32,906 nucleotides of DNA from NCBI GenBank assembly GCA_945900735.1, contig CAMDJX010000009.1:1-32906 (forward strand). The letters are read 5' to 3'. The notes beneath the pieces are model-generated. The model did not search any database. It saw nothing but the letters and a program-made list of their open reading frames with translations, and had not been told where the DNA came from. Source of the DNA: Acidimicrobium ferrooxidans DSM 10331. Its GTDB lineage: Bacteria; Actinomycetota; Acidimicrobiia; Acidimicrobiales; Ilumatobacteraceae. Positions 21,114 to 25,925 of the stretch are shown one piece after another (position 1 is the first letter of the stretch; each line of letters starts with the position of its first letter). The position numbers were made by a program, and so were the translations under genes.

Positions 21114-23651
21114 ATGTTCCGACTGTCATTAAAGATGACGCTGGCTCGCAAGGGTCGGCTCATACTTACTTCGCTCGCCATTATTTTGGGAACAAGCTTC
21201 CTTTCAGGAACGTACATTTTCTCCGACACTCTGAATAAGACTTTCGAGCGATTGTTCTCCGATGTTTTTCGCGATGTAGATGCATACGTGCGCTCTTCCA
21301 GTTTCGTTGAAGTTGACTTTGGTGGCGAGCAGCGCTCGAGCACGCCAATCGAAGCGCTCGAGACCGTGCTCGCAGTGCCGGGCGTGAAAGATGCCGTCGG
21401 CGACATCCAAGGATTTGCCCGAATCATTGGCAAAGACGGCACGCCGCTGGGTGCCGACAACGGCCCACCAACATTTGGTGGCATTGCCGCATCCAACATT
21501 GTGGGTTTATGGAATATTGAGGAAGGCCGCCTTGCTGTGGGCCCAACCGAAGTTGTGCTCGATAAGGCTTCGGCAGAAAACGGCGATTTCGTCTTAGGCG
21601 ACAAGGTTCGCGTAAACGCACAATCCGGAAGCCGCGAATTTACTCTCGTTGGTATTGCCAACTATGGCGACGTCAGTTCGCCAGGCGGTGCAACATTTGC
21701 ATTGTTCGACCAGCCAACCGCATCCGAGTTTCTGCTCAAGCCGGGCCTTGTCGATGCATTCCTTATTCAAGGTGATGGTTCACTATCTGACGAAGAGTTG
21801 GCTAATGCCGTCGATAAGGCGCTCGACCCAGCAGACAAACTTGAGACTTTGACGGGTGCCGAAATCACCGAGGAAACCCAGGGCCAAATCCAAACCGTGC
21901 TCAATTTTTTGACCACCTTCCTCAAAGTGTTTTCATACATCGCACTAGGCATCGGCTGCTTTGTTATCTATAACGTTTTTTCGATTACTGCAGCACAGCG
22001 CCTCCGTGAAAATGCCTTGATGCGCGCAATTGGCGCTAGTAAGCGCCAAGTTGCAACTGCGCTGCTAGTTGAGGCAACCATCGTTGGTGTTCTTGGATCA
22101 CTCATGGGTTTCGTTGCCGGTATCGGAATCTCTCGAGGCCTCAGCGCATTGCTCAAAGCATTTGGCGCCGAACTTCCTACAAAAGGTCTGACCATTCAGA
22201 CAAGCGCATTTGTCACCACCATGATCGTCGGCGTGCTTGTCACTATTTTCTCCGCCGTGTTTCCTGCACTGCGTGCGGGCCGTGTGCTTCCGCTTGCTGC
22301 TTTGCGCGACACCGCGCTTGAAACAATCGGCAGCAACGTCAAGCGGTTTGTGATTGCCTTCATCATCTTGGCGCTCGGCATTGTCGCAATCATGGCAGCC
22401 GCAAACGACGCACCACTTGGCGTGCTTGGCCTGGGCGTGCTGTTTGTCTTTACTGCTGTTCTCATCATGGGCCCTGGTATTTCACGACCAGTTGCTTTGA
22501 CACTCGGTCAACCAATCCGAAAAATTCGCGGCGTCACCGGCGGCATGGCGCGACAGAATGCGGCTCGCAATCCAAAACGAACGGCTCGCACTGCAGCACC
22601 GGTATTGATCGGTGTCGCACTTGTTACGGCATTCGCCTCGTTCGCATCCAGTTTCAAATCCGAAATTCGCGACACCATCGGCAGCCAATTCAAAGGCGAC
22701 TTCGCCATCAGCGTTTCCAATAATGGTTTCGGTGGCCTGCCCATCACGCTTGTCGACGAGATCGGCGCTCTTCCTGAAGTTGCGCAGGCAACAGGGCTTG
22801 GCTTTGCAACGATCACGCTCGACGGGAAAGGCCGTTTCGTTCAAGTCATCAACCCGAAAACCACGGCTGGCCTCATCGACCTCGAAATGGTTTCGGGCTC
22901 GCAAAGCGCACTGTCGGCAAACGGGATTCTTGTTAGCGACACTCGCGCTATTGCCAAAGATTGGTCCATCGGCACACCGCTCGACATCGTGCTTGTAGAC
23001 GGCACCACCAAAACAGTGACCATTGAAGGAACATTTGTTGCTTCTGGCTTCACTGGCTCCTACGTCATCAATCGCGACCTCTTTGCCGACACCACCAACA
23101 CTTTGTTCGACAACTCCATCTATGTCACCCTCAAACCGGGTGTTTCCGCCGATGTTGCACGGGCAAAGATTGAAGCGTTGTCGTCGGAGAAGGGCCTGGG
23201 CAAAGTGGAAAGCCGCGCCGAGTTCATTGACGCTCAATCCAGCCAAATCGACCAGTTCTTCGGGATCATTTACGGCTTGTTGTTCCTATCCATCATCATC
23301 GCCATCGTCGGCATCGTCATCACCCTGTTGCTGTCGGTGTTTGAGCGACGCCGCGAGATTGGTTTGCTTCGTGCGGTTGGCATGACCAGGGGCCAGGCGT
23401 GGGAGTCCGTCACGTGGGAAAGCGTCATCACCTCGTTTATTGGTGCCGTCACCGGCATAGTTCTTGGAATCGTGATGGGTGCAGTGCTGATTACGGTGCT
23501 CTCCACTAACGGCATTTCAACATTCCGTCTTCCAGTTGGCACAACGATCTTCATTTTGATTATGGCTTTCATCGTGGGTGTCATTGCTGCGGTATACCCG
23601 GCATGGCGCGCCACGCGCACCGACATCATCTCGGCAATCGCCACCAACTAA
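21114..23651 (+). CDS. ABC transporter permease with two FtsX domains
   Basis: This 845-residue membrane protein starts with one membrane helix (LILTSLAIILGTSFLSGTYIF). An extracytoplasmic MacB-like domain (about 45-260) and the first FtsX helix set (about 265-390) follow. Two linking helices (about 405-465) lead to a second extracytoplasmic domain (about 510-705) and the second FtsX set (about 710-840), which ends ...VYPAWRATRTDIISAIATN. Conserved FERRREIGLLRAVGMTRGQ and LRENALMRAIGASKRQ mark the cytoplasmic coupling helices. This fused architecture works with the preceding ATPase. GGAG lies 10 bases upstream of ATG 21114, overlapping the end of the ATPase gene. Confidence 0.94.
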   Translation: MFRLSLKMTLARKGRLILTSLAIILGTSFLSGTYIFSDTLNKTFERLFSDVFRDVDAYVRSSSFVEVDFGGEQRSSTPIEALETVLAVPGVKDAVGDIQGFARIIGKDGTPLGADNGPPTFGGIAASNIVGLWNIEEGRLAVGPTEVVLDKASAENGDFVLGDKVRVNAQSGSREFTLVGIANYGDVSSPGGATFALFDQPTASEFLLKPGLVDAFLIQGDGSLSDEELANAVDKALDPADKLETLTGAEITEETQGQIQTVLNFLTTFLKVFSYIALGIGCFVIYNVFSITAAQRLRENALMRAIGASKRQVATALLVEATIVGVLGSLMGFVAGIGISRGLSALLKAFGAELPTKGLTIQTSAFVTTMIVGVLVTIFSAVFPALRAGRVLPLAALRDTALETIGSNVKRFVIAFIILALGIVAIMAAANDAPLGVLGLGVLFVFTAVLIMGPGISRPVALTLGQPIRKIRGVTGGMARQNAARNPKRTARTAAPVLIGVALVTAFASFASSFKSEIRDTIGSQFKGDFAISVSNNGFGGLPITLVDEIGALPEVAQATGLGFATITLDGKGRFVQVINPKTTAGLIDLEMVSGSQSALSANGILVSDTRAIAKDWSIGTPLDIVLVDGTTKTVTIEGTFVASGFTGSYVINRDLFADTTNTLFDNSIYVTLKPGVSADVARAKIEALSSEKGLGKVESRAEFIDAQSSQIDQFFGIIYGLLFLSIIIAIVGIVITLLLSVFERRREIGLLRAVGMTRGQAWESVTWESVITSFIGAVTGIVLGIVMGAVLITVLSTNGISTFRLPVGTTIFILIMAFIVGVIAAVYPAWRATRTDIISAIATN

Positions 23652-23662
23652 AAGGTGAAGTT

Positions 23663-24055
23663 ATGAAACCGTCGGAAATCACGCCAGAGATGGTGCAGTT
23701 TTTGCGCGACAGACACTTGGCAACGCTCACCACGCTTCGCCAAGATGGCTCGCCGCATGTTGTTGCGGTCGGTTTCAGTTACGACGTCGAGCGACAGCGC
23801 GCTCGCGTGATCACTTTTTCGACGGCACAAAAAGCAAAGAACGCTTTGCTCGGCGGAAGAGCCGCAGTTTCGCAGGTGGATGGCGGCCGATGGTTAACGC
23901 TTGAGGGTGTTGCACATCTTGTTACGCGCGAGACCGACCCCGATGAAGTGCAACGTGCGGTTGCGGGATACGCCGCCCGGTATCAAGAACCAAAGGAACG
24001 CGACAACCGCGTTGCAGTGATTATTGAAGTCGACCGCATCATGGGTCGGGCGTAA
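23663..24055 (+). CDS. Split-barrel F420/FMN-dependent oxidoreductase (PPOX family)
   Basis: This 130-residue protein has the pyridoxamine-phosphate-oxidase-like split-barrel fold of Rv1155-type actinobacterial proteins. LRDRHLATLTTLRQDGSPHVVAV opens the barrel. VITFSTAQKAKNALLGGRAAVSQVDG and WLTLEGVAHLV are the following conserved strands. The cofactor is probably F420, as in related actinobacterial proteins, but FMN cannot be excluded. ATG 23663 is chosen because AGGTGA stands 4 bases upstream; an ORF extension to 23603 lies inside the permease gene. It is the last gene of the ABC operon (11 bases after the permease stop) and ends 5 bases from the convergent glycosylase gene. Confidence 0.87.
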   Translation: MKPSEITPEMVQFLRDRHLATLTTLRQDGSPHVVAVGFSYDVERQRARVITFSTAQKAKNALLGGRAAVSQVDGGRWLTLEGVAHLVTRETDPDEVQRAVAGYAARYQEPKERDNRVAVIIEVDRIMGRA

Positions 24056-24060
24056 CCGAA

Positions 24061-24981
24061 TCAGTACGTGTTGTGCTGGCTGTTATCACGAGCAGAAATC
24101 ACATCCTGCATGAACATTTGTGCTGCTGGATGCTGATCGACATACATTCCGTCGCGCTCAATCGATAACGGCGTGAAATTCGGCCTGACCAAAGGCTGAT
24201 GGGCCGTTTGGCAGCCTGGGCACCAGTACAGCACCCTGCTGGCTTCGCCGTGGTGGGCAACACGGATCAAGTCGCCACAGCGGTGACAGGCTTTGCCCTG
24301 TCGGCCGTATGCGGCCAAATCGTGCGCTACACCCTCGGCGCTCTTGTGCGCAGGGTGAACATAATTTGATTGCAACATTTCGTATGCCAACTGCACAAGC
24401 TCTCGACACTCGGCGCGCTTCAACGTACCAATTTGTGCCCAAGGATGAATCTCGCAAGCCCACAAAATTTCGCAGCGATACACATTGCCGACGCCAACCA
24501 TGATGCGCTGGTCGTGCAGTACTTCCGAGATGGTTTCGTCGCGCTCCTCGTATCCCATCATTCTGTCGACACACTCTTCGATGTCGGCCGATGGCGATCT
24601 GAGATCGGGCCCAAGCGTTCCTAACAATGGGTGACGACGTGGGTCAAAGTCGCGATATGTTTCGACACTCGAAGAATTGAAGCATGCTGCAACCCATTCA
24701 TCGACTTCGACAACCACATGCGCACTGTCTTGCGGCTTTTTCCACACTTCACCTTGCCGATACAAGTGCCAGCCGCCAAGTAAACGCAGCTGCGTTTCCA
24801 AAACCATTCCGTCGTCCCAAACAATTTCGATGCTCTTGTTGTGGCTGCGCACTTCTTCAATGGTGCTGCCAACTTCGGGCAAAGGACCGGCAGAAAGAGG
24901 TGCATTTATTCGGATTAACTCTTTACCGATGAGCGCCGTTCGCAATGCAACTGCACTGCGATATAGGGCGATTTCCGACAT
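24061..24981 (-). CDS. nei: Fpg/Nei-family DNA glycosylase with Ser in place of N-terminal Pro
   Basis: This is a 306-residue base-excision-repair glycosylase homologue. The N-terminal domain starts MSEIALYRS: E3 is conserved but the catalytic proline expected at position 2 is serine. K49 (SHNKSIEI) matches the conserved DNA-contacting lysine. The helix-two-turn-helix has VGVGNVYRCEILW (162-174, N166). The zinc finger is complete with C232, C235, C254 and C257, and R249 just before YWCPGCQ. The length and a C-terminal tail of about 45 residues are somewhat long. ATG 24981 is supported by a TAATGT hexamer 6 bases upstream and no earlier start is available. Either the serine acts as nucleophile with altered chemistry (glycosylase only), or the protein has another role. 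Confidence 0.88.
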   Translation of the reverse strand: MSEIALYRSAVALRTALIGKELIRINAPLSAGPLPEVGSTIEEVRSHNKSIEIVWDDGMVLETQLRLLGGWHLYRQGEVWKKPQDSAHVVVEVDEWVAACFNSSSVETYRDFDPRRHPLLGTLGPDLRSPSADIEECVDRMMGYEERDETISEVLHDQRIMVGVGNVYRCEILWACEIHPWAQIGTLKRAECRELVQLAYEMLQSNYVHPAHKSAEGVAHDLAAYGRQGKACHRCGDLIRVAHHGEASRVLYWCPGCQTAHQPLVRPNFTPLSIERDGMYVDQHPAAQMFMQDVISARDNSQHNTY

Positions 24982-24987
24982 GACTAA

Positions 24988-24993
24988 ACATTA
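24988..24993 (-). promoter_or_regulatory. Candidate leaderless -10 (TAATGT) for the glycosylase gene
   Basis: On the minus strand TAATGT ends 6 bases before ATG 24981, confirming the MSE start. Confidence 0.5.
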
Positions 24994-25035
24994 TTCACCC
25001 CCATCATTAGAGTGAGGGATCTCCCCACTTTCACC

Positions 25036-25359
25036 ATGACTTCACCCGACGAACAACAACATCACGACGACGAGTCGGCGATGATCAAGCGTGCCGCGCA
25101 GCGTTACGGAACAGTTGGCGCGATGTTGGCCGGCGGAATGGTGGTCTTCGACAAGTTGCTTGGTCGAAAACCAAAAGAAGAAGCGGCAATTGTCGTGGAG
25201 GCCTCTGGCGAACCCGGCGACATCGACGTAGATGGCATCAACTTCGTGTTAGACGACAACACCGCTGTCAGTTCGCCCCCGCCACAGGCTCGATTGGGCC
25301 TCAGGCGCCAAGTGCGAAAACGGCGCAGGGCCAACACCCACAAGGATTTGCTGCCCTAA
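25036..25359 (+). CDS. Small probable membrane protein of unknown function
   Basis: This is a 107-residue protein. An acidic, His-rich start (EQQHHDDESA) leads to a hydrophobic, Gly-rich stretch (VGAMLAGGMVVFDKLLG), probably one membrane or membrane-associated helix. Then come a basic KPKEEA segment, an acidic middle (GEPGDIDVDGINFVLDD) and a very basic tail (RRQVRKRRRANTHK). I believe similar proteins occur in Acidimicrobiia but recognise no domain. ATG 25036 is preferred; GTG 25012 is possible. A TAGAGT hexamer (25008-25013) would give a leader of about 16 bases. Its TAA overlaps the stop codon of the convergent DUF4916 gene. Confidence 0.7.
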   Translation: MTSPDEQQHHDDESAMIKRAAQRYGTVGAMLAGGMVVFDKLLGRKPKEEAAIVVEASGEPGDIDVDGINFVLDDNTAVSSPPPQARLGLRRQVRKRRRANTHKDLLP

Positions 25360-25364
25360 GGCAG
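25351..25364. terminator. Short hairpin over two overlapping stop codons
   Basis: CTGCC and GGCAG pair across a CTAA loop that contains the TAA of the plus-strand gene and the TAG of the minus-strand gene. The stem is only 5 bp and no T-tract follows on either side, so a bidirectional terminator is only a possibility. Confidence 0.3.
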
Positions 25365-25925
25365 TTGGCCAACCGAGCCCAACGCAAGGCGCACCAAGCG
25401 GTCGTGGCCGCTTGTCATCTCGCGCTTCATCTGGTCGCTGACAGCCTGCTCGGGTGTGAACCATCCCAAGTCGAGCGCCTGTTGCGTTGGGTGACAGTCG
25501 CCAGAAACAGGAACTACGTACGCAAGGCTCACTGCATGATGGCGCGGATCGTGGAAACCACTGATCGTTGGATCGGGGAAGTATTCGACAACTGTGAACG
25601 GCGCGGGTTCGGCAGGAATCTTTGGCAGAGCCAGTGGCCCCAAATCTTTTTCGAGATGCCTAATCAATGCCTCACGGATTCGTTCGCCCAAGAGCACTCG
25701 CCCTGAAACAACTGTTCGGCTGATGTTGCCATCGGGTGCCTGACGCAGCAACATGCCCACGTGCGTCACCTGGCCCATGTCGTCCACCCGCACTGGCACG
25801 GCGTCCACGTACACAAGGGGCACCTGCCCACGCACATCACTCAGGGTTTGGGGGTCGAGCCAATTGGTTCGCACGTCGATATGGTCGGTCACCAGCGCAC
25901 CTCGTTTTCGTAGTTCGGTTTCCAT
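25356..25925 (-). CDS. DUF4916 Nudix-fold protein
   Basis: This 189-residue protein matches the actinobacterial DUF4916 group of Nudix-like proteins. WLDPQTLSDVRGQVPLVYVDAVPVRVD opens it, followed by VSGRVLLGERIREALIRHLEKDLGPLALP, where the Nudix box would be, and by HDPRHHAVSLAYVVPVSGDC and LGWFTPEQA. The REALIRHLEKDLG stretch lacks the full G-x5-E-x7-REUxEExGU pattern, so metal-dependent pyrophosphatase activity is doubtful. ATG 25925 is 66 bases from the divergent DoxX-like start. The last codons overlap the stop of the convergent small membrane protein. Confidence 0.85.
   Translation of the reverse strand: METELRKRGALVTDHIDVRTNWLDPQTLSDVRGQVPLVYVDAVPVRVDDMGQVTHVGMLLRQAPDGNISRTVVSGRVLLGERIREALIRHLEKDLGPLALPKIPAEPAPFTVVEYFPDPTISGFHDPRHHAVSLAYVVPVSGDCHPTQQALDLGWFTPEQAVSDQMKREMTSGHDRLVRLALGSVGQLP

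Follow-up and report, generated by a model that had tools for sequence, protein, structure and literature searches.

What is a DNA glycosylase of the Fpg/Nei superfamily for, once the N-terminal proline that serves as its nucleophile has gone? The window (the whole 32,906-nt stretch of Ilumatobacteraceae DNA analyzed here) carries a gene that raises this question, with the following parts:

24061..24981, minus strand: nei2-like gene lacking the catalytic Pro2, 306 aa (open reading frame and translation, H2TH domain, match to 8tjg)
24970..24981, minus strand: eroded catalytic N-terminus, Met-Ser-Glu-Ile in place of Met-Pro-Glu-Gly-Asp
24835..24837, minus strand: K49, the counterpart of Lys51 of M. 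smegmatis Nei2, kept (alignment)
24769..24795, minus strand: intercalating-loop segment TQLRLLGGW, changed from THMRMTGSW (alignment)
24367..24615, minus strand: H2TH DNA-binding domain with the invariant N166 at 24484-24486, conserved at 99-100% in Pro-less and intact orthologs alike (Pfam PF06831, residues 123-205; alignment)
24310..24372, minus strand: region of the presumed lesion-capping loop, altered (alignment)
24211..24288, minus strand: four-cysteine zinc finger, C232, C235, C254 and C257, plus R249 (translation, alignment)
24064..24201, minus strand: tail after the zinc finger with the motif DQHPAAQMFM, found, among the families read, in Ilumatobacteraceae only

A Nei2 Ortholog With a Different N-Terminus

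The reading frame is uninterrupted and its product begins with MSEIALYRSAVALRTAL, that is, with MSE where its relatives have MPEGDT; Ser2 thus stands in the place of the Pro2 nucleophile of Fpg/Nei enzymes. The original prediction of an Fpg/Nei protein without the N-terminal proline, equipped with an H2TH domain, a full zinc finger and the conserved lysine, is borne out: PF06831 (H2TH) scores 47.6 bits against a cut-off of 34.7, which places the protein in the superfamily; C232/C235/C254/C257 align with Cys225/228/245/248 of M. smegmatis Nei2, so all four zinc ligands are present, although the Pfam zf-FPG_IleRS model reaches 12.7 bits, under its cut-off of 21.3; and the active-site lysine is K49, next to an Asn48 where the alignment usually has Gly. 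The N-terminal Fapy_DNA_glyco domain (PF01149) has no match in the protein in the Pfam search. The claim that Glu3 is kept holds in part: position 3 is indeed a glutamate, but a one-residue deletion follows it, leaving the start one residue shorter than MPEGDTIYR, and its equivalence to Glu3 is therefore unsure. Two AlphaFold models (pLDDT 61 and 57), used for fold assignment alone, are too poor to place this residue and support the fold, nothing finer; with an AlphaFold model as the query, the top three Foldseek matches include E. coli Nei and M. smegmatis Nei2. The latter is also the closest solved structure by sequence (8tjg, E 6.8e-25), and the closest NCBIfam model is that of Nei2 (NF040775), at 103.5 bits, short of the equivalog cut-off of 400. 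The window gene belongs among the orthologs of actinobacterial Nei2: the family members form one clade with common synteny, and in two genera (g11 and g47) the intact members have lhr as a linked gene.

Could the proline simply be hidden behind a misplaced start? The frame is closed by a TAA four codons before the ATG, so no earlier start is possible, and a hexamer sits at a leaderless distance from the start codon:

24988..24993, minus strand: -10 hexamer TAATGT, leaderless promoter, 6 nt before the ATG

The stop and the hexamer, found exactly 6 nt upstream as had been claimed, make the start as firm as first proposed. Of 161 orthologs, 141 have a TANNNT hexamer 5-10 nt ahead of the start codon, against about 13 expected from shuffles, and in 80/161 the spacing is 6 nt, as in the window; the rates are nearly equal in orthologs with (58/66) and without (83/95) the N-terminal Pro-Glu motif. 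A TANNNT 6-7 nt ahead of the start codon is strongly conserved for nei2 across Ilumatobacteraceae. Such spacing is consistent with leaderless transcripts, which would open directly with the start codon. In genus g4 (loci L076, L078, L079, L081, L082, L084 and similar), the TGA of the upstream NUDIX gene overlaps the GTG start of nei2, which suggests translational coupling instead of a leaderless promoter. Homologs that begin with proline at a different start were sought and none was found: those with the proline use the equivalent start and, together with the upstream stop and the spacing of the promoter, rule out an alternative start or hidden proline.

Recurrent Loss of the Catalytic Motif

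The window gene is one of many of its kind. Among the 161 Nei2 orthologs, drawn from 26 genera of Ilumatobacteraceae, a family of aquatic bacteria, the Pro-Glu motif is intact in 67 and lost in 94, and a tree of the protein body sequence, in which nearly every genus is a single clade, requires at least 20 changes of the motif. The replacements bear no relation to each other. Within the window genus alone, the N-termini are MSEIA (window), MLEVN, MREVN, VLIGH, MAGSR and VPLRY; elsewhere, the motif has given way to MRVKS, MLFKS and VMFAIL (g4), MPDKN (part of g2), VLEAP and VIEAS (g13), VAGRG and VTGGA (g46), and MITGD and MPVAD (g43). The expectation that nearly all family members carry the proline survives outside Ilumatobacteraceae, where PEGDT is intact in 25/25 Nei2 orthologs from other families of the same order, but fails inside. 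Within Ilumatobacteraceae, canonical Fpg with its N-terminal domain is encoded in 181/200 genomes, and its N-terminus, PELPEVE, is preserved in 32/32 proteins read. Together, these controls indicate that the erosion is specific both to Nei2 and to Ilumatobacteraceae. Genome-wide erosion of repair genes is rejected for Fpg, which is intact in these genomes; the window genome itself encodes an intact Fpg and at least two HhH-GPD proteins that score above the cut-off. A literature search of partial coverage found no paper on Pro-Glu loss of Nei2 in Ilumatobacteraceae.

The neighborhood is largely constant:

25356..25925, minus strand: DUF4916/NUDIX gene, conserved upstream neighbor of nei2 (Pfam, synteny)
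23651..24055, plus strand: PNPOx-fold gene, conserved convergent neighbor (Pfam, synteny)

In most genera, NUDIX/DUF4916 lies upstream and the PNPOx-fold and FtsX-type (ABC) genes are convergent, an arrangement common to Pro-less and intact orthologs; with identical neighbors, the two classes are orthologs that occupy a single, largely conserved locus rather than side copies. Identical synteny also disposes of a paralog beside an intact copy, and the sole other Fpg/Nei match in the window genome is canonical Fpg. A 115-aa open reading frame at 25012-25359 (plus strand) has no Pfam match and is conserved at this position in several genera (g1, g2, g3, g9 and g46).

What Has Eroded and What Is Kept

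Does the damage stop at the N-terminus? Numbered as in M. smegmatis Nei2, residue 51 is Lys in 97% of the Pro-Glu-intact orthologs, whereas Pro-less orthologs most often carry Arg there (66%). Most Pro-less lineages also show degradation or deletion of the intercalating HMRM segment and of the loop at 197-214, which we take, on the general pattern of Fpg/Nei structures, to be the lesion-capping loop. N159 of the H2TH domain, R240 of the zinc finger and the four zinc cysteines, on the other hand, reach 98-100% conservation in either class. With the columns concerned left out of the tree, likelihood tests support correlated evolution of the Pro-Glu motif with Lys51 (p=1.4e-6), the loop (p=2.6e-7) and the intercalating segment (p=6.7e-8), although a few events can inflate the significance of Pagel-type tests; under the stricter independent-pairs test, the link with Lys51 is weak (median p 0.039), and those with the loop and the intercalating segment are not significant.

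Across the body of the protein, median dN/dS in the Pro-less groups, estimated from pairs in which synonymous sites are nearly saturated, lies mostly at 0.02-0.22, in the same range as in the intact groups; the window genus stands at 0.05, and g46 departs from the pattern with 0.38. Read from these substitution patterns, the protein is under purifying selection, yet its chemistry does not appear to be the thing kept.

Also kept is a family-specific addition. The tail motif D-x-H-P-A-A occurs in 138/149 orthologs of the family, 79/86 Pro-less and 59/63 intact, and is absent from 18/18 readable tails of other families of the same order; it is thus retained with or without the catalytic residues. 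When the motif was sought in the other proteins of six genomes, Nei2 was the only confident match. We read it as a putative docking motif. In L011 of G004, one of two intact genomes of the window genus, the HPAA tail lies in another frame at the end of nei2, a frameshift that is either real or an assembly error.

Loss of the Motif and the Helicase Lhr

In mycobacteria, one operon contains both nei2 and lhr, which encodes a helicase (PMC11323726). Is the fate of the catalytic motif linked to this partner? A PF08494 protein (Lhr) of ~1,500 aa is found in 85/200 genomes; in g11 and g47, an intact nei2 follows the end of lhr on its strand, after a few hundred bases. PF08494 has no match in the window genome (G000, 91% complete), and in the window genus, among the genomes listed, Lhr is present in G004 alone, which has the intact MPEGDT; the other MPEGDT genome, G008, is 55% complete. 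Of the g2 genomes read, all four with Lhr have the intact motif, whereas the five that lack Lhr carry MPDKN. Overall, the intact motif is found in 53/80 Lhr-bearing vs. 14/81 Lhr-less genomes (Fisher p 2e-10, a test that ignores kinship). With phylogeny taken into account, a likelihood test still links Lhr and the Pro-Glu motif (p 1.7e-4 for all genomes, 0.0025 for those at least 80% complete), whereas the independent-pairs test does not reach significance (median p 0.22 and 0.375). The association is thus suggestive that motif loss is tied to the absence of Lhr. The Lhr-containing genera g43, g12, g42 and g8 also lack the motif. At the g43 loci (L112, L113 and others), Lhr-bearing genomes are near-complete and the Pro-Glu motif is still lost; loss of Lhr is therefore not a precondition.

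A Repair Protein Without Chemistry?

Experiments on M. smegmatis Nei2 frame what these losses would mean. Its P2A and P2C variants have no AP lyase activity but fully rescue psoralen-UVA sensitivity (Warren and Shuman, PMC11323726), so a lyase-dead protein can be functional; glycosylase activity on 5-hydroxyuracil is retained by P2A but abolished by E3A, which fails to rescue, and K51A gives partial rescue (PMC11323726). The authors were surprised that mycobacteria remain protected against psoralen crosslinks when their Nei2 is lyase-dead (PMC11323726). By analogy, AP lyase activity has very likely been lost in the window protein, and these mutants caution that loss of function need not follow.

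Most likely, and with somewhat better than even confidence, the window protein is a DNA-binding pseudo-glycosylase derived from Nei2. It has lost the catalytic head (Pro2-Glu3-Gly4), and the Pro-less orthologs at large also show wear of the lysine and of the intercalating and capping loops; the saddle that would grip the DNA backbone (H2TH, zinc finger) and the new D-x-H-P-A-A tail are kept. Such a protein would still bind damaged or single-stranded DNA but would not excise bases; its tail would dock a partner, so that the protein would mark lesions for another pathway, and Fpg and the HhH-GPD enzymes of the same genome would presumably do the glycosylase and AP-lyase work. A broader proposal, which we put forward tentatively and consider somewhat less probable than its negation, is that Nei2 of Ilumatobacteraceae as a whole has become an adaptor that binds lesions without enzymatic activity and carries a docking tail of its own; once it was in this role, its head would have been free to erode repeatedly, mostly in Lhr-less lineages.

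If Pro2 is dispensable for function in M. smegmatis, why not a glycosylase that merely lacks lyase activity? Here, Met1 would be removed, Ser2 would become N-terminal, Glu3 and Lys49 would act as a monofunctional or weak glycosylase, and another enzyme would cut the AP site. The wild-type-like action of lyase-dead P2A on 5-hydroxyuracil, together with its function in vivo, speaks for this possibility, as does the window protein itself, a less eroded member with K49 and a glutamate at position 3, which is also found in 26/94 Pro-less orthologs. The family pattern at residues 2 and 3 leads us to prefer the non-catalytic reading: in 50/94 Pro-less orthologs, residue 2 is expected to leave the initiator Met in place, and 49/94 have no acid at position 3. 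Furthermore, Lys gives way to Arg in most of them, the base-handling loops decay, and in the window protein the N-terminus, shorter by one residue, may leave Glu3 short of the site. Finally, P2C of M. smegmatis Nei2 complements without measured 5-hydroxyuracil activity. Against the non-catalytic reading stand the E3A and K51A complementation results, which suggest that in M. smegmatis something beyond the mere presence of the protein matters. On balance, a surviving glycosylase seems unlikely, yet it is the strongest of the alternatives. The same observations make it less likely that, as the original prediction suggested, the Ser2 amine acts as the nucleophile: a substitute nucleophile is not what selection kept, given the pattern at residues 2 and 3 and the eroded lysine and loops, and Ser2 as a selected replacement is disfavored by the bulky or charged residue 2 of sister lineages.

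Alternatively, the pathway of the gene could have been lost, with relaxed selection now letting the gene decay toward disappearance and its low dN/dS recording only the past. Many unrelated replacements of the N-terminal motif, the raised median in g46 (0.38) and the absence of the ortholog from a few genomes are what decay would produce. However, open reading frames are intact in nearly all Pro-less orthologs of many genera, the zinc cysteines and the H2TH Asn are invariant, the promoter (83/95) and the tail (79/86) are kept, and median dN/dS, on near-saturated synonymous sites, is low (0.05 for the window genus, 0.02-0.2 elsewhere); decay is accordingly improbable. Least of all, with hardly any probability left to it, could a wrong start, a frameshift or a sequencing error be masking the proline: the genomes are metagenome-assembled and that of G004 has the tail frameshift, but the upstream in-frame stop and the hexamer at leaderless distance in both classes fix the start, Fpg is intact in the same genomes, and the loss recurs in independent assemblies of many genera, which also rejects an error in the second codon.

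Comparison With Known Systems

M. smegmatis Nei2 (8tjg), the third-ranked fold match, shares with the window protein the H2TH domain, the zinc finger and the position of Lys51, and, as in mycobacteria, the intact g11 and g47 orthologs follow lhr on its strand. The window protein differs in that it lacks Pro2, has an N-terminus shorter by one residue, carries an extra C-terminal tail of ~45 residues, scores 103.5 against the NCBIfam cut-off of 400, and comes from a genome in which no Lhr was found. E. coli Nei (endonuclease VIII), the top fold match at 24% identity, has the same fold and domain order; unlike the window protein, it has the catalytic Pro/Glu/Lys and no tail after the zinc finger.

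M. tuberculosis Rv0944 (Fpg2), another Fpg/Nei protein, is missing its N-terminal catalytic part (PMC2734929), but it is a truncation in a single species, with full-length orthologs in M. smegmatis and M. avium, whereas in Ilumatobacteraceae the loss is recurrent and the remainder of the protein is complete. The family amounts to a natural experiment on the question raised by lyase-dead mycobacterial Nei2, in which the catalytic head has been removed repeatedly and the DNA-binding body and tail have been kept; the pattern argues for a selected Nei2-type role beyond catalysis, and matched intact and headless orthologs within one genus are available to find it. Annotations as “Fpg/Nei glycosylase” in these genomes may misstate activity. 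A further comparison is with vertebrate NEIL3, an Fpg/Nei protein with Val instead of Pro at position 2, for which a non-catalytic scaffold role has been proposed (PMC11323726). NEIL3 is not closely related to the window protein (E 1.9e-12), keeps Glu3 and is an active glycosylase, whereas Nei2 of Ilumatobacteraceae often loses Glu3 and Lys; if the adaptor proposal is true, it would be a bacterial parallel to the scaffold role of NEIL3.
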